In this document: positions 23,096 to 33,161 of the stretch, piece after piece | How the letters are laid out: every line of letters starts with the position of its first letter | Position numbering within the stretch: position 1 is the stretch's first letter | Source of the DNA: Phycisphaerales bacterium | Lineage (GTDB): Bacteria > Planctomycetota > Phycisphaerae > Phycisphaerales > SM1A02 | NCBI GenBank assembly: GCA_009692015.1 | Contig: SIAB01000007.1 | Coordinates: 1 to 36,991, forward strand | Length of the DNA stretch: 36,991 nucleotides | Direction: 5' to 3' | Position numbers and translations under genes: made by a program | The notes under the pieces: model-generated | What the model was told of the DNA's origin: nothing | The model's database searches: none | Seen by the model: only the letters and a program-made list of their open reading frames with translations

Positions 23096-23569
23096 ATGAC
23101 CAAAGCACAAGGTGAACCTTGGTTCAAGAATGGTTTGCGGTTCTCGTGCACCCAGTGCGGCAATTGTTGCACAGGTGGCCCCGGCGCCGTTTGGTTCACC
23201 CCAGCAGAGGGTGGTGCGATGGCAGCAGCCCTCGGCATGACCGAGGAGGAGTTCACCGCCAAGCACACCCGCGTGATCGCGCAGCGACGATCGTTGAACG
23301 AGTCCGAAACGACTCATGGATTTGACTGCACATTTCTCGATCGCACGACTGATCCTGGCCGCGCTCTCTGCCGTGTCTATCAGGCCCGTCCGGCGCAGTG
23401 CCGAACCTGGCCTTTCTGGCCTGAGAATATGAGCACGCCACAGGCATGGAAGGATGCCAAGGCACGCACCCCCTGCCCGGGAATGGGGCAAGGGCAACTC
23501 ATCACAATCGAAGAAATTCGCATACTCCGCGATCAGGATGCGGCCGACAATTCGACGGCGCCTTGGTAG
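23096..23569 (+). CDS. YkgJ-type cysteine-cluster protein
   Basis: This is a 157-residue soluble protein with the Cx2Cx2CC signature at Cys18, Cys21, Cys24 and Cys25, and further cysteines at 78, 92, 102 and 127, the last ones in a C-R-V-Y-x-A-R-P-x-x-C-R-x-W-P segment. This is the pattern of the YkgJ/UPF0153 family, proteins thought to bind zinc or an iron-sulfur cluster; their function is not firmly established. It starts 48 bases after rpoC with no terminator in between, so it may be read from the rpoBC transcript. Its 3' end overlaps the probable TTG start of the next cysteine-rich gene. Confidence 0.88.
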   Translation: MTKAQGEPWFKNGLRFSCTQCGNCCTGGPGAVWFTPAEGGAMAAALGMTEEEFTAKHTRVIAQRRSLNESETTHGFDCTFLDRTTDPGRALCRVYQARPAQCRTWPFWPENMSTPQAWKDAKARTPCPGMGQGQLITIEEIRILRDQDAADNSTAPW

Positions 23570-24120
23570 CCCAGTCGGGATGCGCTCTGAATCCATTTCT
23601 TCCTGAACATCCGCCAGATGATCTGACTTTGAAGACTTGGTGGATCGCGGCGCGCGATCCCGCAATCGATGGCGCCCTGCGTGCGCTCCACGAGCACGCT
23701 GCGACCGTTGCCGCGCTGAACCGCCCAGTTTGTCTGGCATCGGGTCGGTGCTGCCAGTTTGCAGAGCACGGACACATGCTTGCTGTCACGGGTCTCGAGG
23801 CGCTCTGGGTTTGGCAGCAGACTTCGGCTCGTCTTTCGACCGCGTCGGCCCAGATCGCGCAGGCGATCGGCCAGTGCGGTTTTCTCGATGGCAAACTCTG
23901 CTCGATTCATCCCAACCGTCCAACGGGTTGCCGCACATACTTCTGCGATCGTGGCGATGGGCAGTGGCAGTCATCGCTCGGTGAGTCGCTCCACCAAGCC
24001 CTTCGCGCCCTCCATACAGAGCACCAACTTCCCTATCTCTGCGCCGAGTGGACATGGCTCCTGACCGTGCTTGCCCGCGCAGAATCGCGGGGGGTTTTTC
24101 CCGCAGTGCCGCTACCCTAG
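23563..24120 (+). CDS. Second cysteine-cluster (YkgJ-like) protein, start uncertain
   Basis: This is a divergent relative of the preceding gene. About 185 residues can be read from TTG at 23563, which overlaps the previous stop by 7 bases. The frame is open further upstream to an ATG at 23446, but that part lies inside the previous gene and looks like a frame shadow. The core has Cys57, Cys63 and Cys64 (C-x5-C-C), Cys105, Cys113, and a C-R-T-Y-F-C pair at 123 and 128 preceded by H-P-N-R-P-T-G. This Cys order and the R-P-x-x-C-R-x-Y motif match the YkgJ pattern. No function is known. The pair may act together, for example as partners in the same metal or cluster-binding role; this is inference. 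Confidence 0.75.
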   Translation: MVAQSGCALNPFLPEHPPDDLTLKTWWIAARDPAIDGALRALHEHAATVAALNRPVCLASGRCCQFAEHGHMLAVTGLEALWVWQQTSARLSTASAQIAQAIGQCGFLDGKLCSIHPNRPTGCRTYFCDRGDGQWQSSLGESLHQALRALHTEHQLPYLCAEWTWLLTVLARAESRGVFPAVPLP

Positions 24121-24129: not shown

Positions 24130-25092
24130 ATGCGCGAGTATGAGTTGCGACATGACCTCAAACGATCCGAGGTGGCGGGCTACCAGTTTCCACTAGGGAT
24201 TGAACCCATCTCCTTGCCTGCTCCCAAGCAGGGCTACACCTTGGAGTACACCCCCGGCGAGGATGGCGACCCCGACACATACGCCTTTCATATCGTCCTG
24301 AGCCACGATCGCCTCGGCGCAGTGATTCGAGATGCCTTTGACTTTCTCCCCGAGGAGGTCATTCCAATCGTCGAGATTGGATCCCGTGATGCATATCGGG
24401 CGCTGGACATCTATCTCGGTGCAGAGCCGATCGCCACAACGGACTTCTTCAAGGTGTGGAAACGATTCGAACCACTGCTGCTCGAGGATGGATCGATCGG
24501 CGCGGGCGCGAACGCAGAGCAACCCTTCGTCGAGATCTTCCTCGACACATGGAAGGGACTCTTGATCAATGTCCCAATCAGCATGCGCCGCGAGGTCGAA
24601 CAGATGCTCGCTCGTCATGGACTGCGCGAGGTGTTGGAAACATGGCCACACGATTTGGATCACTCACCCGAACCGCCCTCACAATTGCGCGATGTGCTCG
24701 CCACGGAGGATGATCAAAGCCCCGATCTCGACGAGATTCTCTTGCAACTGCGCGAAGCGTGGGACTTGGAGCTCGATGTCGATCCCGAAGTGAACGTCGA
24801 TGAGAGTGGTCGACGACTCGGTCTGGTCTTGTGGCACGCGATCGTGCTGGCCGTTCGTCAAGATCGCCGCGGCAAGGGGGCATACATCACGGTCTGGGCG
24901 ACGGCGGGAAGCCTTGCCGAGATGGAACGAATCGTCAACGACCATGTCGAAGAGAAAATGCCAGAGTGGAGTTTTGAGGGCTTTTTCTCGCTGGATCGTG
25001 TGGCCTTTGACGAACGCCCCGAAGAACTTTCGGACCTCACCATGCGGCGAAACCAACCGCAAGTTCATCTGACTTCGATCGACGCCTGGTGA
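24130..25092 (+). CDS. Protein of unknown function, 320 aa
   Basis: I do not recognise this protein. It is soluble, strongly acidic, with no signal peptide, membrane segment or cysteine cluster. It looks alpha/beta with long charged helices (for example around residues 150-180 and 200-225) and a conserved-looking stretch V-P-I-S-M-R-R-E-V-E-Q-M-L near residue 150. The C-terminal third (Y-I-T-V-W-A-T-A-G-S-L-A-E-M) could be a separate small domain. It follows the second cysteine-cluster gene by 9 bases and uses similar codons, so it is a real gene and may belong to the same operon. Its stop codon touches the stop codon of the convergent livF. Confidence 0.8.
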   Translation: MREYELRHDLKRSEVAGYQFPLGIEPISLPAPKQGYTLEYTPGEDGDPDTYAFHIVLSHDRLGAVIRDAFDFLPEEVIPIVEIGSRDAYRALDIYLGAEPIATTDFFKVWKRFEPLLLEDGSIGAGANAEQPFVEIFLDTWKGLLINVPISMRREVEQMLARHGLREVLETWPHDLDHSPEPPSQLRDVLATEDDQSPDLDEILLQLREAWDLELDVDPEVNVDESGRRLGLVLWHAIVLAVRQDRRGKGAYITVWATAGSLAEMERIVNDHVEEKMPEWSFEGFFSLDRVAFDERPEELSDLTMRRNQPQVHLTSIDAW

Positions 25093-25809
25093 TCATTCGC
25101 CGAGGTAGGCGCTCTTGATTCGATCGTCGTTGAGCAGGTCGCTCGACTCTCCTGAAACGGTGACGGCGCCGGTCTCGATGACATAACCGCGCGACGAGAG
25201 TTTCAGAGCGCCGCGCGCGTTCTGCTCCACAAGTAACACAGTCAATCCATCTTGATTGAGTTCACGAATCGCAGCGAAAATGCGGGTCACAAGAATCGGG
25301 GCGATTCCCATCGATGGTTCGTCCATCATGAGCAGTCGCGGACGACTCATCAACGCCCGACCGATCGCAAGCATTTGCTGTTCGCCGCCGGAGAGTGTTC
25401 CAGCGAGCTGCGATTGCCGTTCCTTGAGAATCGGGAAGAGATCATGCACGCGGTGCATCTCGCTCACGACCGCGTGACCATCACTGTGCAAGTATGCCCC
25501 GAGCGTCAGGTTCTCGAGGACAGTCATCCGCGCAAACACACGCCGACCCTCGGGCACCTGCACGAGACCGCGCGCGACAACCTCATCGGGCCGCAATCCC
25601 AGCATGGACTCGCCACAGAAGCAAACGACTCCCGCCGTGGGTCGAATCACCTGATTGATCGCCATCAGCGTGGTGCTCTTCCCCGCGCCATTCGAGCCAA
25701 TCAAGGCGACGATCTCCCCAGCTTCGACCCGCAGAGAAACCCCCCGCAGCACCTCGATGGGCCCGTAACCGCAGCGCAGTTCTGAGACTTCCAACATCGA
25801 ATGACTCAT
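25093..25809 (-). CDS. livF: Branched-chain amino acid ABC transporter ATPase LivF
   Basis: This is one of the two ATP-binding subunits of a LivFGHM-type importer for branched-chain amino acids or related compounds. From the ATG at 25809 it has 238 residues, the normal length. Walker A is G-S-N-G-A-G-K-S, followed by the family motif V-P-E-G-R-R-V-F-A-R-M-T-V, the signature L-S-G-G-E-Q-Q-M-L-A-I-G-R-A-L, Walker B L-L-M-M-D-E-P-S-M-G and the H-loop replaced by the LivF-type V-L-L-V-E-Q-N. The start is set by the ATGA overlap with the livG stop; an upstream ATG at 25845 would extend into livG. It is the last gene of the operon. Confidence 0.95.
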   Translation of the reverse strand: MSHSMLEVSELRCGYGPIEVLRGVSLRVEAGEIVALIGSNGAGKSTTLMAINQVIRPTAGVVCFCGESMLGLRPDEVVARGLVQVPEGRRVFARMTVLENLTLGAYLHSDGHAVVSEMHRVHDLFPILKERQSQLAGTLSGGEQQMLAIGRALMSRPRLLMMDEPSMGIAPILVTRIFAAIRELNQDGLTVLLVEQNARGALKLSSRGYVIETGAVTVSGESSDLLNDDRIKSAYLGE

Positions 25810-26840
25810 CCGTGGCTCTCCGTGCCGAGGTAGGCCTCGACACACGCTGAATTTGCGCGGATTTCGGCGGGTGTGCCCTCTGCGATTTGTTTCCCGTATT
25901 GAAGGACGAGAATCCGATCGGAAACGCCCATCACCAGCCGCATATGGTGTTCAATGAGCACGACGGTCGTTCCAGCATCGCGAACCCGACGAATGAGTGC
26001 CATGAGATCGACCACCTCGGATGGATTCATCCCAGCTGCTGGCTCGTCGAGCAGGATGAGCTTTGGCTTCCCGGCGAGGGCGCGGGCGATCTCGAGCCGA
26101 CGCCGATATCCGTAGGGAAGACTCCCTGCGGCCGAATCTGCGCGGTCTGCCAGCCCAACAAACTCGAGGAGTTTCTCTGCTTCGGCGTGAAACCGCTCGC
26201 GCTCAGAAAAGAACAGCGGCAGGCGCAGCAGCGCGCTCCAGAATCCTGCCTTCATCCGGTAATCCATGCCAACGAGAACATTTTGCACGAGGCTCAGTTC
26301 ATTGAAGAGGCGGATATTCTGGAAGGTGCGCGCGACTCCGCTGCGGGCAATCACATCGGGGGTACGGCGCGACCGCCACCAGAGAATCAGCGTCGTTGCC
26401 GCGCCCACGCATCCCCCGATGCACCCGGTCGCGATCCCGGCGGAGAACGGCAGTTCGGCGAGCGCGCGGAAGAAGTCACCCGCTGCTTTTCCCCAGGGAA
26501 ATGGCTGCAAATAGACATAATTCGCATTGATCACCCGCGTCCAGAGCGATTCGACATTGATGGCGACAACCGCGGTGCAACCAATCAGCACAAACGCCAG
26601 GGCGATTCGCGCGATTGTCAGCGCAGTCCATCCCAGGCGCACCTCTCGTCCTGAAAACTGCACAACGCCCGAAGTTGGTTCGTAAATCCCAGTGATCGCG
26701 TTGAAGAGTGTGGTCTTTCCAGCACCATTGGGACCGATCACCGCGAAAATTTCTCCTTCCTGCACGGTCAGCGAGACATCTTGGACTGCCACGAGTCCGC
26801 CGAATCGCATGGTCATTCCCTGCGCCGAGAGCACACTCAT
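25806..26840 (-). CDS. livG: Branched-chain amino acid ABC transporter ATPase LivG with a membrane-type insertion
   Basis: This is the second ATPase subunit of the transporter. From the ATG at 26840 (ATGA overlap with livM) it has 344 residues, about 90 more than the usual 250-260. All ATPase motifs are present: Walker A GPNGAGKT (36-43), Q-loop R-T-F-Q (Gln174), signature L-P-Y-G-Y-R-R-R-L-E (241-250), Walker B L-I-L-L-D-E-P (261-267) and the H-loop His298. The extra length lies between residues 68 and 158, exactly between Walker A and the Q-loop. It contains two strongly hydrophobic stretches, about 74-94 and 134-155, which look like transmembrane helices, joined by about 38 polar or aromatic residues. 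Two crossings would leave both halves of the ATPase in the cytoplasm. The frame is uninterrupted, so this is not an assembly fusion visible as a frameshift. Confidence 0.94.
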   Translation of the reverse strand: MSVLSAQGMTMRFGGLVAVQDVSLTVQEGEIFAVIGPNGAGKTTLFNAITGIYEPTSGVVQFSGREVRLGWTALTIARIALAFVLIGCTAVVAINVESLWTRVINANYVYLQPFPWGKAAGDFFRALAELPFSAGIATGCIGGCVGAATTLILWWRSRRTPDVIARSGVARTFQNIRLFNELSLVQNVLVGMDYRMKAGFWSALLRLPLFFSERERFHAEAEKLLEFVGLADRADSAAGSLPYGYRRRLEIARALAGKPKLILLDEPAAGMNPSEVVDLMALIRRVRDAGTTVVLIEHHMRLVMGVSDRILVLQYGKQIAEGTPAEIRANSACVEAYLGTESHG

Positions 26841-27853
26841 CGCATGCTCCGCTCGATGCGCGGTGGAAGGAGACCGTCGGGTTTGAGCCGCACGGCAAGC
26901 ACCAGCGCCAAACCAAAGATCAGGTACTTCCAATTGTTTGGCGAAAGCAGGACATTCCCCTGTCCGCCGATCCCCAGCGCAGCGAGTGCCGCCGCGGCTT
27001 TCACGAGCACAATCGAATTGAGTCCGACCATCACCAGGGCACCCACCAGCACGCCGGCAATTCCGCCGATTCCTCCCACGATCACGATGCAGAGCGCGAG
27101 AATCGATACTTGAAAGTCATAGTTGCTCGGCTCGCCAGTTGAACTCAAGACGCTTGCCGAAAGCCCGCCAGCGAGCGCGGCGATCGCAGCCCCCGTCGAG
27201 AACGCGAGCATCTTGACGCGCTCGACACGAATCCCCATCGATCGCGAAGCCAATTCATCTTGACGAATGCTGAACCACGCTCTGCCGAGGCGCGAGCGTT
27301 CCAGATTTCGCACGAAGAGCACCACGATCACCAGGACCGCAAGGAGCAGGTAGTACCACTTGTACTCATCGCTGGCCGTCCAAGCTTCGCCACCGAACGA
27401 GGGAGATGGAAGCGGATTGATCCCTTGGGTGCCTTTGGTCACCGTGTCGAGATTCTTGAGCAGATCCTGCACAATCTCGCCGAACCCGAGGGTGACGATC
27501 GCCAGGTAATCACCGCGCAAACGAAGAGTCGGCGCGCCCAGCACAAATCCCGCCAGCGCGCCAATGGGAAGTGTCAGAAGAATCCCAGGCCAGAAGCCGA
27601 CCTGAAAGGGATAGATCTCGCAGGTCAGAATCGCGAAGGCATAGGCGCCAATCGCCATGAACGCGGCGATTCCGAGATTCAAGAGTCCTGCATAGCCAGA
27701 GACCACATTGAGACCCAGCGCCAGGATGGCATAGAGAAAGACGCCGCGCACTGCTTCGCTGATGCGCAGTGATTCGGGCAGCGCCAGATCGACGATCGGC
27801 ACGACCGCAGCACAAGTGAGAATGATCGTGATCGCGCCGAATCTCCCGCGCAT
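26837..27853 (-). CDS. livM: Branched-chain amino acid ABC transporter permease LivM
   Basis: This is one of two membrane channel subunits of the Liv importer. It has 338 residues from the ATG at 27853, which is preceded by GGAGAAGGTG and lies 2 bases after the livH stop. The family segments are visible: A-L-G-L-N-V-V-S-G-Y-A-G-L-L-N-L-G, L-R-L-R-G-D-Y-L-A-I-V-T-L-G-F-G-E-I, and the last hydrophobic helices around G-I-A-G-V-L-V-G-A. About eight to ten membrane helices are expected. The longer reading frame starting at 27949 would run back into livH and is not used. Confidence 0.95.
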   Translation of the reverse strand: MRGRFGAITIILTCAAVVPIVDLALPESLRISEAVRGVFLYAILALGLNVVSGYAGLLNLGIAAFMAIGAYAFAILTCEIYPFQVGFWPGILLTLPIGALAGFVLGAPTLRLRGDYLAIVTLGFGEIVQDLLKNLDTVTKGTQGINPLPSPSFGGEAWTASDEYKWYYLLLAVLVIVVLFVRNLERSRLGRAWFSIRQDELASRSMGIRVERVKMLAFSTGAAIAALAGGLSASVLSSTGEPSNYDFQVSILALCIVIVGGIGGIAGVLVGALVMVGLNSIVLVKAAAALAALGIGGQGNVLLSPNNWKYLIFGLALVLAVRLKPDGLLPPRIERSMR

Positions 27854-27855
27854 GT

Positions 27856-28812
27856 TCACACCTTCTCCCGCCGGGTTGTACCGAGGAGACCGCTGGGACG
27901 GAAGATCAAAATCATCACCAGCATTCCGAAGACGATGGTGTTGGTCCACTGCGTTTCGAGATACTGGTCGCTCATCGCCCGCACGAGCCCGATCGTCAAT
28001 CCGCCGAGGACTGCGCCGGGCAAACTACCGATCCCGCCAACCACTGCCGCCGTGAAGGCGTCCATGCCAGCGCGGTATCCCATCTGAAACCCAATCGTGT
28101 TGTTGTAGAGCGCGTAGACGACACTCGCGAATCCGCCCAGCGCTCCACCGATGAAGAAGGTGATGCCAATGACCCGGTCGACCGGAATTCCCATGAGCGC
28201 CGCGGCCGTGGCATCCTGCGCCACCGCCCGCATCGCCCTTCCCATACGGGTGCGATTCACCAAGAAGACCAGCCCGATCATGAGTGGCACGGTCACCACA
28301 ACGACCGCGATGTCAGCTGGGGTGATGCGAATCGCACTCGCACCAAGCAGGTTGGTTTGCGGGATCAACTGTGGAAAATCTTTCGGGGCCGCGGCGGCGA
28401 CACCACCGGCAAAGACTTCCATCGGGACTCCGCCCCAGAAGAGCCCCAAGTTTGTGCAGATGAATGAGCAGCCGATCGCAGAAACGAGCAGCGAGAGTTT
28501 CGAAGCGCGACGTAATGATCGATAGGCCACACGGTCGAGGGTCCAGTTCAAGCCACCACAGAAGAGCGCACTTCCAACCAGCATGATCGCCACGCCTCCA
28601 ATGCGCCAGGTCGGCGACCATGCTTCCATTCCCAGCACACCCAAGAGAGTCAGCGCCAGAAATGCTCCCAACATAAAGACATCACCGTGCGCGAAATTGA
28701 TCAATTCGATGATGCCATAGACCATCGTGTAGCCCAAGGCGATCAGCGCGATGATCATGCCGTTGGAGAGCCCCGTGATGAGTTGTTGGAGAAAGACCTC
28801 GTGGGGCTGCAT
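27856..28812 (-). CDS. livH: Branched-chain amino acid ABC transporter permease LivH
   Basis: This is the partner permease of LivM. It has 318 residues, close to the usual 290-310. The typical N-terminal part (L-I-T-G-L-S-N-G-M-I-I-A-L-I-A-L-G-Y-T-M-V-Y-G) and I-N-F-A-H-G-D-V-F-M-L-G-A are present, as is the R-A-V-A-Q-D segment and A-V-V-G-G-I-G-S-L-P-G-A-V-L-G-G. About eight membrane helices are expected. A slightly longer loop with G-G-V-A-A-A-A-P-K-D lies in the middle. It follows the binding-protein gene by 22 bases and precedes livM by 2 bases, so the whole cluster is one operon. Confidence 0.95.
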   Translation of the reverse strand: MQPHEVFLQQLITGLSNGMIIALIALGYTMVYGIIELINFAHGDVFMLGAFLALTLLGVLGMEAWSPTWRIGGVAIMLVGSALFCGGLNWTLDRVAYRSLRRASKLSLLVSAIGCSFICTNLGLFWGGVPMEVFAGGVAAAAPKDFPQLIPQTNLLGASAIRITPADIAVVVVTVPLMIGLVFLVNRTRMGRAMRAVAQDATAAALMGIPVDRVIGITFFIGGALGGFASVVYALYNNTIGFQMGYRAGMDAFTAAVVGGIGSLPGAVLGGLTIGLVRAMSDQYLETQWTNTIVFGMLVMILIFRPSGLLGTTRREKV

Positions 28813-28834: not shown

Positions 28835-30058
28835 TCAGTCTCCGAGAACCTTCACGAACTCGAACTTGCCATTCTTGACAGTCTGCCCACTCATGACCTT
28901 GCTCGAGGTGTCACCGTTGGCATCGAATGACCACTTTCCAAGCACGCCATCGAAGTCGACTGTCTCGGCAACGGCGGCGAGCACGCCAGCACGATCCTTG
29001 GTCTTCGCCCGCGCGATCGCATCCAAGAGGACACGCGCCGCCTCATATCCATACGCTGCATATGCCTCGGGATCGGATCCGTAGCGCTTGTGATAGGCCT
29101 CACGAAACGTCGCGCCGCGACCGGTCAGTTTTTCGGCCGGCAGTCCGCCGAATGTGATGTAGGTCTTGTCGTTGAGATTGGAATCCCCTGCCGCTTCGAT
29201 GAACGCTTGTTCGAAGCAACCATCGGGAACCATGTACAGCCCCTCGTAGCCACCGGCGCGCAAGTCTTTGGCGATCTGCCCGGCATTGCTCTGCGTCGTG
29301 CCTCCGAAGTAGACAAGGTCAGGACCGACCGCTTTGATCTTGGTGACGAGCGGCCGGTAGTTCGACGCCTTGGCATCGGTTCCTTCGAACCCAACGACTT
29401 CCATTCCAATTTCCTTGGCGCGCTTCTGAAAGACATCCGCAATGCCCTTGCCATAGAGCTCGCGGTCATTCAAGATAAAGACCTTTTTCGCACCGAGCGA
29501 CTTCGCCCAGTTTGCCGCCTGCGTCCCCTGCAAGTCGTCAGCCGGAACGACGCGAAAATAGTTGATCTTTCCGGTCGGCCGGTAAACCATTGGCTCGTTG
29601 GCCTCGCCCGTGCCTGGCTTGGTCAATCCCGGATAAGTATTCGCCGGGCTCACCATCACAAGTCCTGCGCGATTCAGGATCGGCATCGCGACTTTCGCGG
29701 CGCCCGAATTGAAGGTGCCGATGTATCCGACGCACGAACGGTCCTTCGCCGCTGCGTTTGCGTTCTGCGCCTCGACCGTGGGATCCCAGTTGCCGCGCTG
29801 CGGGCTGGCATCGTCGAGATCCTGATAGGTGATCGTCCATCCATCGATCTGCCCATTCACCTCTTCGATGGCCAGTTTGATTCCGTTCACCATGGTCGAT
29901 GTCTGGGCGTTGGCGCTACCTGTCCGCGGCAGACTCGAAACCAAGTGCAGTGTGCCCTTGCTCGACTCGCTCTGCTGCGCCGCCGTTGCGGCGAAGCTCG
30001 CGAAGAGACCAAGAGATGCGATCAAGATGAATGTGATGGTCGGCAGTGTGTTTTTCAT
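28835..30058 (-). CDS. livJ: Periplasmic substrate-binding protein of the Liv-type transporter
   Basis: This 407-residue protein has a signal peptide (about residues 1-27, cleavage after A-T-A-A) and the type I periplasmic binding fold of the Leu/Ile/Val-binding family. Segments such as G-I-K-L-A-I-E-E-V-N-G, S-P-A-N-T-Y-P-G-L-T, Y-F-R-V-V-P-A-D-D-L-Q-G and D-R-E-L-Y-G-K-G-I fit that family. The substrate cannot be told from sequence: it may be a branched-chain amino acid or another small organic compound. It is the first gene of the livJ-H-M-G-F cluster and follows lpxB by 55 bases on the same strand. A TACGAT box 28 bases before the ATG could be its own -10 element. Confidence 0.93.
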   Translation of the reverse strand: MKNTLPTITFILIASLGLFASFAATAAQQSESSKGTLHLVSSLPRTGSANAQTSTMVNGIKLAIEEVNGQIDGWTITYQDLDDASPQRGNWDPTVEAQNANAAAKDRSCVGYIGTFNSGAAKVAMPILNRAGLVMVSPANTYPGLTKPGTGEANEPMVYRPTGKINYFRVVPADDLQGTQAANWAKSLGAKKVFILNDRELYGKGIADVFQKRAKEIGMEVVGFEGTDAKASNYRPLVTKIKAVGPDLVYFGGTTQSNAGQIAKDLRAGGYEGLYMVPDGCFEQAFIEAAGDSNLNDKTYITFGGLPAEKLTGRGATFREAYHKRYGSDPEAYAAYGYEAARVLLDAIARAKTKDRAGVLAAVAETVDFDGVLGKWSFDANGDTSSKVMSGQTVKNGKFEFVKVLGD

Positions 30059-30113: not shown

Positions 30114-31262
30114 TCAACTACGGGGATGCGCTTGCGCCACGCGCGCGATCACTTCTGCTGACTCGCGCCCAGGATCGTGGCCTTCGAAACAGCGGGCGAT
30201 TTCGCGCAGTCCAGTTGTGATCTCGGCGCGCCAGTGCGGTTCACTCGCCATGCGCAGAGCCGCGGCGATGATCGGCGCTGACGATCCGGACCAAGGCACA
30301 AACTCGGGCACGAGGCAACGCTTTGCCAAAATGTTTGGGAGCAACCGCTGTGGAGTCCGCAACATGAAATTGGCCCCAATCCGAGCCAGCGCGCTCGTCT
30401 GGTAGATCCCAATCATCGGCTTCGCGGCGCGCGTCAAGTCCAGACTCACCGTGCCAGAAACCCCCACTGCGAAATCACACCAGGCCACGGCGCGATCGAT
30501 CACACCAGTCATCAGAGTCGCATTGCGGGGGATCGATCCGACGACTTCGACAAATCGTCGCGCGATGCTCGGACTCGCTGCGCAGATCACTGCCGCTGTG
30601 TTGGGGTACCGCCCTGAAATCGAGGCGAGTACTTCAAGCAAGAGCTTGCTGTTTCGATTCACTTCAATCGTTCGAGAGCCCGGCAGAATCAGAACCCGTG
30701 GCGCGCCCGCTTCGGGTTCCTGCCAGAGGTCACCCGACTCAGCACTGTCGTGCGCATCACCCATCACTGGATGACCAACAAATGTGGCGGGGACACCCCG
30801 CGCGCGAAACCATGCCTCCTCGAAGGGCAACAGACAGATGACATGATCGGTCAGCCGGCGCAGTTTTCGAATACGCCAGGGTCCCCAAGCCCAGATCTGC
30901 GGCGCCACGAGATGCACGACCCGAGCTCCACGGCCCTTCATCCGCTTGCACATCGGAAAATTCGCGGCCGGAGAGTCAACTGGCACATGCACCGCAACGG
31001 GATTCTCTCTCCCGAATCGATCAATCTCCCCGGCGATTCGCCGAATCGACAAGATCTTGTCGAGGGCTGGAACACCCATCGTTCCATCGTCGGCGGTGCG
31101 CCCCATCATCTCGGCGCCAGCTGCTTCCATGCGCCGTCCGCCCCACGCGACCAGCCGCCAGGTTGGGTGCGCGCCGCGCAGTGCTGCGATCACTGGGGCA
31201 GCGTGCGCATCGCCCGATGGTTCGAAGGCGGTGAAGAGAATGAGCGGCGCTCTGCGCGACAT
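30114..31262 (-). CDS. lpxB: Lipid-A-disaccharide synthase (LpxB-like glycosyltransferase)
   Basis: LpxB joins UDP-diacylglucosamine and lipid X to form the lipid A disaccharide at the inner face of the inner membrane. This 382-residue protein has the family landmarks: E-P-S-G-D (Glu14 to Asp18), A-P-Q-I-W-A-W (120-126), L-L-P-F-E-E-A-W-F and F-V-G-H-P-V. In the region corresponding to (I/V)-D-x-P-D-F of the proteobacterial enzymes it reads V-D-S-P-A-A-N-F: the first Asp (96) is kept, the second acidic position is Ala. The C-terminal sugar-nucleotide part contains L-P-G-S-R-T-I-E-V-N-R. The gene suggests a lipid A outer membrane. The ATG at 31262 has TAGCCT 6 bases upstream and no Shine-Dalgarno sequence. 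Confidence 0.9.
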   Translation of the reverse strand: MSRRAPLILFTAFEPSGDAHAAPVIAALRGAHPTWRLVAWGGRRMEAAGAEMMGRTADDGTMGVPALDKILSIRRIAGEIDRFGRENPVAVHVPVDSPAANFPMCKRMKGRGARVVHLVAPQIWAWGPWRIRKLRRLTDHVICLLPFEEAWFRARGVPATFVGHPVMGDAHDSAESGDLWQEPEAGAPRVLILPGSRTIEVNRNSKLLLEVLASISGRYPNTAAVICAASPSIARRFVEVVGSIPRNATLMTGVIDRAVAWCDFAVGVSGTVSLDLTRAAKPMIGIYQTSALARIGANFMLRTPQRLLPNILAKRCLVPEFVPWSGSSAPIIAAALRMASEPHWRAEITTGLREIARCFEGHDPGRESAEVIARVAQAHPRS

Positions 31263-31268
31263 TCGCTA

Positions 31269-31274
31269 AGGCTA
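31269..31274 (-). promoter_or_regulatory. TAGCCT -10-like box 6 bases before the lpxB ATG
   Basis: On the minus strand TAGCCT, six bases and ATG would place the transcription start on the first base of the start codon. It lies in the 84-base divergent gap between lpxB and aspS. No clear -35 element is seen. Confidence 0.4.
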
Positions 31275-31346
31275 ACCGCATCGGTTCACGACGCTCCGCG
31301 AGGCGATCGCTACCATCCGAAACCCTCGAGCGACAAGAGAAGCGAC

Positions 31347-33161
31347 ATGCTGAAGCGAACACATTATTGCGGACAACTCCGCCCAGCCCACGCTGGGCAG
31401 ACCGTCACACTTTGCGGCTGGATCAATACCTACCGCGAGCAAGGAAAGGGCTTGTTCTTCGTCGACTTGCGCGACCGCGAGGGGCTCGCCCAAGTGGTCT
31501 TCGGCATCGAATCCTGCCCCGCCGCCCTTGTCGAGCAAGCGCGCATGCTGCGCCGCGAGGATGTCGTCGGGGTGCGGGGCACGGTGCGACTTCGCACCGG
31601 CGGTGCCAATCCCAAGCTCGCCAGCGGCGAGGTCGAAGTCGTTGCAGAGTCGATCGAGATTTTCAACAAGGCCGAAACGCCACCCATTCTCCCCGATGAG
31701 TATGAGGCCGACAAGATCAGCGAGGAAACCCGTCTCAAGTATCGCTACATCGATCTACGCCGGCCGCGCATGCAGAGCATCTTGAAGACCCGCTCGCGGA
31801 TCACCAAGTTCACCCGTGACTACTTTACAAATCATGGTTTTCTTGAAATCGAGACCCCCCTGCTGATCAAGAGCACGCCAGAAGGCGCGCGCGATTTCGT
31901 TGTTCCAAGCCGCTTGCACGCGGGACAGTGGTATGCCCTTCCCCAAAGTCCTCAGTTGTTCAAGCAGATTCTGATGGTGGCCGGCTGCGACCGATACTTG
32001 CAGATCTGCCGGTGCTTGCGGGACGAGGATCCGCGGGCCGACCGACAGGCCGAGTTCACGCAGATTGATCTCGAGATGAGTTTCGTCGAGCGCGAGGACA
32101 TCATGGAGATGATGGGCGGCTTCGTCGCTGGACTCTGGCAGGAGTTGTTCGCGCACGAGGTGGGCGCGATTGAGCGGATCACCTGGGCACAGTCGATGGA
32201 GAAGTACGGCATCGATCGCCCCGACACCCGCTTTGAACTCTTTGTGCACGATGTTTCAGACATCGCTGCCAAGAGTGACTTCCAAGTCTTCGCGAATGCG
32301 CTGGCAATGCGCAGTCCCACGGGGCGCGCCGGTGTTGTGAAGTGCATTCGGGTCCCAGGCGGGGCGGACAAGCTCACCCGCAAGATGACCGACGGTTACA
32401 GCGAGTGGGTCAAGACTTTCCGCGCCGGCGGTGTGCCAGTCGTCAAGTACACCGCCGCGGGATTCGAGTCTGGCATCGCGAAGTTCATCGGACCCATCGC
32501 CGAAGACCTGAAGACCCGTCTGGCTCTCGAGCCTGGGGACACGGTTCTGTTTGCAGCGGATTCGTGGGAAGTCGCCACCAAGACCATGGGAGAACTTCGT
32601 TTGCGGGTCGCGCGCGACCTCGGTTTCATTCCGCAGGGCAAATGGAATTTCGTCTGGGTGGTCGATTTCCCGATGTTCGATCTTGACGAGGAAAACAAGC
32701 GTTGGGTCGCGCTGCATCATCCATTCACGAGTCCCAATCCGGACCAGTTCGAGATCTTGCAGACCAATCCCGGGGCTTGTCTTTCTGCGGGATATGACCT
32801 GGTTCTCAATGGCAGCGAGATCGCCGGTGGATCGATTCGTATGCACCGCATGGATGTCCAGCAGAAGGTCTTTGAGCTCATTGGACTCTCACGCGAAGAG
32901 GCGCAGTCGAAGTTTGGATTCCTGCTCTCCGCGCTGCGCCACGGGGCACCACCCCACGGTGGAATCGCGTTCGGCCTCGACCGACTGGTAATGCACATCG
33001 TTTCAACCGACAACATTCGCGATGTCATCGCCTTCCCAAAGACTCAGTCCGGTGGCGACCTGATGATCGACGCGCCAGGTCCAATCAGCGCAGAGCAACT
33101 GCGCGAATTGCATGTTCGCAGCACGGTCGCGCCATCACCTGCGCGTGAAACCACCGCTTAG
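31347..33161 (+). CDS. aspS: Aspartyl-tRNA synthetase
   Basis: This class II synthetase charges tRNA with aspartate. From the ATG at 31347 it has 604 residues, normal for the bacterial type with the GAD insertion domain. The N-terminal anticodon-binding OB fold contains C-G-W-I-N-T-Y-R and F-V-D-L-R-D-R-E-G. Motif 2 is C-L-R-D-E-D-P-R-A-D-R-Q-A-E-F-T-Q-I-D, and motif 3 is G-I-A-F-G-L-D-R-L near the C-terminus. The frame is open for about 600 bases further upstream, but that part is antisense to lpxB and lacks AspRS features. The ribosome binding site (AGAGAAG) is weak. Whether it is discriminating for tRNA-Asp or also charges tRNA-Asn cannot be decided here. Confidence 0.97.
   Translation: MLKRTHYCGQLRPAHAGQTVTLCGWINTYREQGKGLFFVDLRDREGLAQVVFGIESCPAALVEQARMLRREDVVGVRGTVRLRTGGANPKLASGEVEVVAESIEIFNKAETPPILPDEYEADKISEETRLKYRYIDLRRPRMQSILKTRSRITKFTRDYFTNHGFLEIETPLLIKSTPEGARDFVVPSRLHAGQWYALPQSPQLFKQILMVAGCDRYLQICRCLRDEDPRADRQAEFTQIDLEMSFVEREDIMEMMGGFVAGLWQELFAHEVGAIERITWAQSMEKYGIDRPDTRFELFVHDVSDIAAKSDFQVFANALAMRSPTGRAGVVKCIRVPGGADKLTRKMTDGYSEWVKTFRAGGVPVVKYTAAGFESGIAKFIGPIAEDLKTRLALEPGDTVLFAADSWEVATKTMGELRLRVARDLGFIPQGKWNFVWVVDFPMFDLDEENKRWVALHHPFTSPNPDQFEILQTNPGACLSAGYDLVLNGSEIAGGSIRMHRMDVQQKVFELIGLSREEAQSKFGFLLSALRHGAPPHGGIAFGLDRLVMHIVSTDNIRDVIAFPKTQSGGDLMIDAPGPISAEQLRELHVRSTVAPSPARETTA

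Follow-up and report, generated by a model that had tools for sequence, protein, structure and literature searches.

The window, the whole 36,991-nt stretch of DNA that was analysed, carries a complete operon of an ABC importer on the minus strand, with the gene order SBP-livH-livM-livG-livF. The genes code for a periplasmic substrate-binding protein with a Peripla_BP_6 domain (28835..30058), the permeases LivH (27856..28812) and LivM (26837..27949, with the likely start near 27853), the ABC ATPase LivG (25806..26840) and a second ATPase, LivF (25093..25845). A sequence-only reading made earlier had placed livG correctly, leaving its strand unstated. The gene starts at 26840, its stop codon takes up positions 25806-25808, and its 344-aa product has a predicted transmembrane insert; LivF has no insert. 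The coding sequence of livF probably begins with the ATG at 25809, which overlaps the stop codon of livG; as judged from the sequence, the livM/livG and livG/livF overlaps are a few bases long.

The ATPase motifs of LivG, which had been described as intact, were confirmed in an alignment of 23 LivG sequences. These motifs, all on the minus strand, are Walker A (residues 36-43, 26712..26735), the Q-loop Gln174 (26319..26321), the ABC signature LPYGYRRRLE (residues 241-250, 26091..26120), Walker B with the catalytic Glu266 (residues 261-267, 26040..26060) and the H-loop His298 (25947..25949). Walker A, Gln174, DEP (265-267) and His298 were invariant across the alignment; the signature varied at its second, fifth and sixth residues. 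The more distant LivG proteins of the alignment had LPYGxQRRLE, and Arg in place of Gln was common to most rows of the same family.

LivG scored 103.5 bits against the Pfam model PF00005 (ABC_tran, cut-off 25), and its C-terminal part scored 32.2 bits against BCA_ABC_TP_C (PF12399, cut-off 25.5). The best NCBIfam model was NF008449, the E. coli LivG equivalog, with 280.7 bits in two matched stretches; the curated cut-off of 362 bits was not reached and the protein is not filed as this equivalog. Judging by its ATPase motifs, the BCA_ABC_TP_C domain and the operon, the window LivG is a predicted member of the LivG branch of the HAAT-type ABC importers. It departs, by its predicted hairpin, from the usual LivG trait (not a curated criterion) of being soluble and free of membrane helices. 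The family is one of amino-acid-type importers, and the substrate class, branched-chain or other amino acids or amides, is putative. The genome is a fragmented draft of 98 contigs. The next best LivG match in it scored 72.6 bits compared to 756 for LivG itself, therefore this is apparently the only LivG of the genome, which is 85.8% complete.

Several other ORFs of the window deserve mention. Two overlapping ORFs in different frames (23096-23569 and 23446-24120) each matched a CxxCxxCC metal-binding domain, while the 320-aa ORF facing livF (24130-25092) had no Pfam or NCBIfam match. At 30114-33161, an lpxB-like minus-strand ORF overlaps the mechanical start of a plus-strand class II tRNA synthetase ORF, whose true start is probably further in.

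The insert and its predicted membrane topology

Walker A and the RTFQ motif were 130 residues apart in the window LivG compared to 41 in ordinary LivG proteins (131 and 42 by the other counting rule). Therefore, the window LivG has about 89 extra residues, in agreement with the earlier count of about 90. The insert delimited by this distance and by the alignment (residues 66-158, 26367..26645, minus strand) is flanked by the beta-strand next after Walker A and by the short helix that precedes the Q-loop.

An AlphaFold2 model, built from an alignment of 30 proteins (the window LivG and database loci), had a mean pLDDT of 92.9 and a pTM of 0.82. The insert was modelled as a confident helical hairpin with helices at 73-94, 96-107, 116-128 and 132-157 (block pLDDT 84-95). 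The outer two are the predicted transmembrane helices 1 (residues 73-94, 26559..26624) and 2 (residues 132-157, 26370..26447, with R158 next); the boundaries of the latter also agree with the alignment. The two short helices belong to the loop between them (residues 95-131, 26448..26558), predicted to be extracytoplasmic from the alignment, the model and a charge count. All three parts are read on the minus strand. In the model the links to the ATPase are short, one from the end of the preceding strand (residue 62) to the start of helix 1 (73) and the other from the end of helix 2 (157) to the start of the pre-Q-loop helix (161). The Kyte-Doolittle peaks (19 residues) fell at 76-94 (mean 2.47) and 135-153 (1.66), and thus the two long hydrophobic stretches noticed earlier were found both by the scan and in the AlphaFold2 hairpin.

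The sequence-only reading had also proposed that the insert arose by a local duplication of its flanks, which was not supported here. The 5/11 identity of the flanks in the window fell to 1-4/11 in 17 other genes, and the second flank aligns with a stretch before the Q-loop that ordinary LivG proteins also have. Within the window LivG, an identity of 5/11 was reached by 21 of 52,326 pairs of 11-mers.

For comparison, we used 252 distinct LivG-like proteins sorted by motif into those with a stretch of ordinary length (166), mid-length (24) and long (62); 35 loci gave no protein and loci L002-L010 had been excluded beforehand. A Kyte-Doolittle peak of at least 1.5 in the corresponding stretch was observed in none of the 166 ordinary-length and none of the 24 mid-length proteins. 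Among the 62 long ones, a cut-off of 1.2 gave two segments in 56, four in 3, three in 1, one in 1 and none in 1. The protein with zero segments was an Oscillospiraceae LivG (L043:4986-5987), whose insert at this site, ~75 residues long, is soluble. With a cut-off of 1.5, the numbers were 49 (two segments), 2 (four), 1 (three), 8 (one) and 2 (none). Hence two or four segments were present in 59 of the 61 membrane-insert proteins at 1.2, the laxest cut-off, and in 51 of the 61 at 1.5. With an even number of crossings, both ATPase halves stay inside.

On the Wimley-White octanol scale, the scan of the window LivG additionally flagged 98-116, 172-190 and 194-212. The 61 membrane-insert proteins had from one to five segments on this scale, with two or four in 29, and one segment was flagged in 67 of the 190 insert-free proteins. 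The octanol scan is too unspecific, and the even-number parity was not reproduced on it; the parity of insert segments depends on the scale and the cut-off.

In 54 of the 56 proteins with two segments, the density of lysine plus arginine was higher in the cytoplasmic flanks than on the side of the loop (36/38 in Planctomycetota, 10/10 in Chloroflexota, 8/8 in Armatimonadota), many of which are near kin and therefore not independent. This count did not include L225 and L279, and the three proteins with four segments were listed without being scored. The Planctomycetota count bears out the earlier suggestion that both ATPase halves are cytoplasmic. Taken together, the mostly even crossings, the charge pattern and the intact ATPase argue for a predicted in-in anchor combined with a working motor.

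Distribution, conservation and origins of the insert

We searched 61 genomes of near relatives: the own genome, 18 of its genus, 18 of other genera of the family and 24 from the rest of the order. Near full-length matches across the insert were found in 22 genomes, i.e., in 18 of 19 in the genus (own included), in 4 of 18 in other genera of the family and in none of the 24 from the order outside the family. The 19th genome of the genus had only a contig-end fragment matching residues 2-56. In addition, genome G006 of the genus carries a second liv operon, also complete, with a 259-aa LivG that lacks the insert (L229:3927-4703).

In the phylum sample, LivG-like matches at E <= 1e-50 were present in 101 of 392 genomes; in 15 of the 101, own included, the match covered the whole profile. 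We retrieved as loci 79 of 88 further match places. Among loci L120-L229 (n=110, L229 being from G006), of which 13 could not be sorted by motif, long inserts were present in 14 of the 15 whole-profile loci and in L225; in the other sorted loci the stretch from Walker A to RTFQ was 31-70 residues long and had no hydrophobic peak. The same kind of insert was observed in Gemmata, Fimbriiglobus, Pirellulales and Planctomycetota MAGs (L041, L042, L067, L064). The search of relatives proposed earlier thus found the insert both in the genus and in other Planctomycetota lineages.

The gene neighbourhood was largely the same in the relatives. LivH, LivM, LivG and LivF were encoded side by side in 20 of 21 loci, with the 21st cut before LivH. 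All five genes, the one for the binding protein included, were present in 7 of 10 insert-bearing loci with long flanks. Of the other three, L062 had no separate LivM match, as its LivM-like and LivG parts share one open frame, and L047 begins inside LivM, at the end of a contig. In L067:1-9353, the insert-bearing LivG stood alone; neither LivF nor LivH nor LivM was detected in these 9.35 kb.

Three Planctomycetota LivG proteins of 420-581 aa (L064:3160-4902, L065:4968-6284 and L067:3094-4353) had much longer extracytoplasmic loops than the others, the longest loop of the two-segment set having 278 residues. By eye, a short W-x-V...G motif occurs one to three times in these loops, and their Pfam matches, searched at E up to 1, were all below threshold. 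The model of the L067 protein, of modest confidence in the loop (blocks 58-80), showed a small domain of three strands and a helix there and a helix 2 of 49 residues; therefore more may be exposed outside the membrane in some lineages. Locus L065 is recorded as Candidatus Kuenenia stuttgartiensis; its 68% GC is unlike that species, and the label may be wrong.

All 18 genes compared at the codon level (the own gene, 16 of the genus and one of another genus, with L028 absent) had 344 codons and no indels. Residues W100 and F114 in the loop, G142 and G146 in helix 2 (a GxxxG spacing) and R158 were invariant in 23 chosen Planctomycetota sequences; two that were found afterwards, L132 and L133, differ by eye at W100 or in the PFPW stretch. 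The pN/pS ratio was 0.60 for the insert compared to 0.28 and 0.21 for the ATPase, with synonymous sites near saturation; by part, it was 0.72 for helix 1 and 0.51 for the loop. Constraint on the insert is therefore looser than on the ATPase, as expected for a part in contact with lipid. In helix 1, it is mainly the hydrophobicity that is conserved, as would suit a lipid anchor; this speaks against many specific contacts.

Membrane inserts of two or four helices at the same LivG site were found in Planctomycetota, Chloroflexota, Armatimonadota and SAR324 (the last three names rest on records L084, L062 and L054). Each phylum was searched with its own query, so that inserts unlike the query would escape. 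With this scope, matches over the insert were observed in 10 of 251 Chloroflexota genomes (165 had any LivG-like match; one further match, L251, was cut by a contig end), in 9 of 151 Armatimonadota genomes (76) and in 2 of 52 SAR324 genomes (9). In the phyla sampled, the majority of genomes that had a LivG-like match showed no such insert, and thus it is dispensable for import as such. For example, SAR324 genome G436 had nine LivG-like matches and one insert; the other eight open frames, of 239-278 residues, are too short to contain it. Four helices were predicted at the site in two SAR324 genomes (L054:4992-6176 and L302) and in one planctomycete (L134). Soluble inserts of ~24 residues were frequent among the retrieved clostridial loci and were seen also in two spirochaete MAGs (L050, L100).

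Kinship between the insert sequences of the four phylum sets was not detected (hhalign probabilities 0.1-0.6%), although short membrane segments are ill suited to this kind of comparison. In a tree built from 95 ATPase cores after removal of the insert, 47 of 92 inner branches were poorly supported and the trait needs 7 changes. All four clade tests were made on this one quick tree. A single origin, with all 46 insert rows in one clade, was rejected (p-AU 0.0011), and a clade of the main Planctomycetota set plus Armatimonadota was weakly rejected (p 0.0355). On the other hand, Planctomycetota plus Chloroflexota as one clade was not rejected (p 0.501), and the main Planctomycetota set of 25, named after the tree was seen and with L134 and L225 dropped, was compatible with one clade (p 0.587). 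These tests support at least two origins; four or more are only likely. The occurrence of membrane inserts unlike in sequence at the same spot in distant groups suggests that the anchor is useful.

Proposed role and known ABC transporters

In textbook ABC importers, the ATPases are peripheral and are held through coupling helices, and the region before the Q-loop faces the permease. In the maltose importer, passages of PMC3150292 describe a helical sub-domain of MalK that docks the coupling helices and a tail of MalG that reaches the Q-loops. We propose, with a probability of about 0.6, that livG makes a membrane-anchored ATPase whose predicted hairpin staples LivG to LivH/LivM. The in-in hairpin would sit beside the permeases, so that LivG would always be in place and correctly paired with the insert-free LivF. 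Since the end of helix 2 is about 16 residues away from Gln174 and the link is short, movement of this helix could be coupled to the Q-loop. The transporter itself is expected to act as an ordinary ATP-driven importer.

A more far-reaching reading is tentative. ABC ATPase domains might be integral membrane proteins, with several phyla having separately placed an even number of helices at one LivG site, and the hairpin might be a new working part tied to the Q-loop that senses the state of the permease or the binding protein within or outside the membrane.

Other explanations assign different roles to the insert, or none. The loop could be a signal receiver that touches the binding protein or its ligand, with helix 2 passing the state to the Q-loop and tuning ATP hydrolysis. 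The invariance of W100 and F114, the lower pN/pS of the loop than of helix 1, and the far longer loops of L064, L065 and L067, with the extra small domain in the L067 model, would fit such a function. Still, the loop of that model is of modest confidence, and the insert loops of Chloroflexota and Armatimonadota have only 2-18 residues, which makes the membrane hairpin and not the loop the shared feature; we consider a receiver unlikely. A neutral or nearly neutral insertion, at a site that tolerates any insert and where hydrophobic ones persist as lipid-facing passengers, we judge to be rather improbable. The soluble clostridial and spirochaete inserts (~24 residues, one of ~75) indicate that the site does tolerate insertion, and the insert changes faster than the ATPase. 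Conversely, its length is fixed in all 18 near kin, it keeps invariant residues over the 23 Planctomycetota sequences, and membrane inserts with mostly even crossing numbers occur in several phyla.

If the hairpin replaced transmembrane helices lost from LivH or LivM, it would be clear why an ATPase gained helices; no result of the analysis backs this idea, and the permeases speak against it. The mean number of hydrophobic segments was about the same with and without the insert, 8.25 (n=8) compared to 8.06 (n=17) per LivH and 8.12 (n=8) compared to 8.14 (n=14) per LivM, a weak comparison given the small groups and some cut ORFs. We regard such a replacement as very improbable. An assembly error or frame artefact might be suspected in a fragmented draft, but it is already refuted by the same insert in 18 of 19 genus genomes and in L041 and L042 of other genera, and we give it practically no credence.

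If an ATPase with its own anchor apparently evolved repeatedly at one site, the anchored LivG would stand for a second way to link motor and permease, next to the coupling helices. It would also offer a natural handle on which ATPase pairs with which permease and on how Q-loop motion is transmitted.

Among titles and abstract openings, preprints and most subscription papers apart, we found no description of membrane helices inside an ABC ATPase domain; within this scope, the earlier view that such a LivG had not been described stands. A Foldseek search of PDB returned ordinary ABC ATPases, such as LptB and MJ1267, and among the best 50 of 1,694 matches no title named a membrane hairpin inside the ATPase, which titles need not show. 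The top fold matches of the ATPase part were LptB chains (PDB 6mbn, 4p33). These serve lipopolysaccharide export and, at 226-241 residues among the matches listed, are too short for the insert.

Of two soluble inserts in ABC ATPases, the 'LivG insert' of MJ1267 is situated after the Q-loop and the regulatory insertion of CFTR before Walker A. Both are, like the hairpin, inserts in ABC ATPase domains, but they have no membrane part. According to a passage of PMC3776845, the MJ1267 insert is the structural equivalent of the sites that bind the coupling loops in other ABC ATPases. The clostridial LivG proteins with a soluble 24-residue insert (L044 and others) share the insertion point with the window LivG, whereas no hydrophobic segment was present in the 24 mid-length proteins. 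The closest known proteins are those of the LivG/BraF type, represented by E. coli LivG (NF008449) and by MJ1267 (PDB 1g6h), the best solved sequence relative (alignment A2). The window LivG resembles them in its motifs, C-terminal BCA_ABC_TP_C domain and operon, and differs from them in the ~89 extra residues, the two predicted membrane helices and a score below the NF008449 cut-off of 362.
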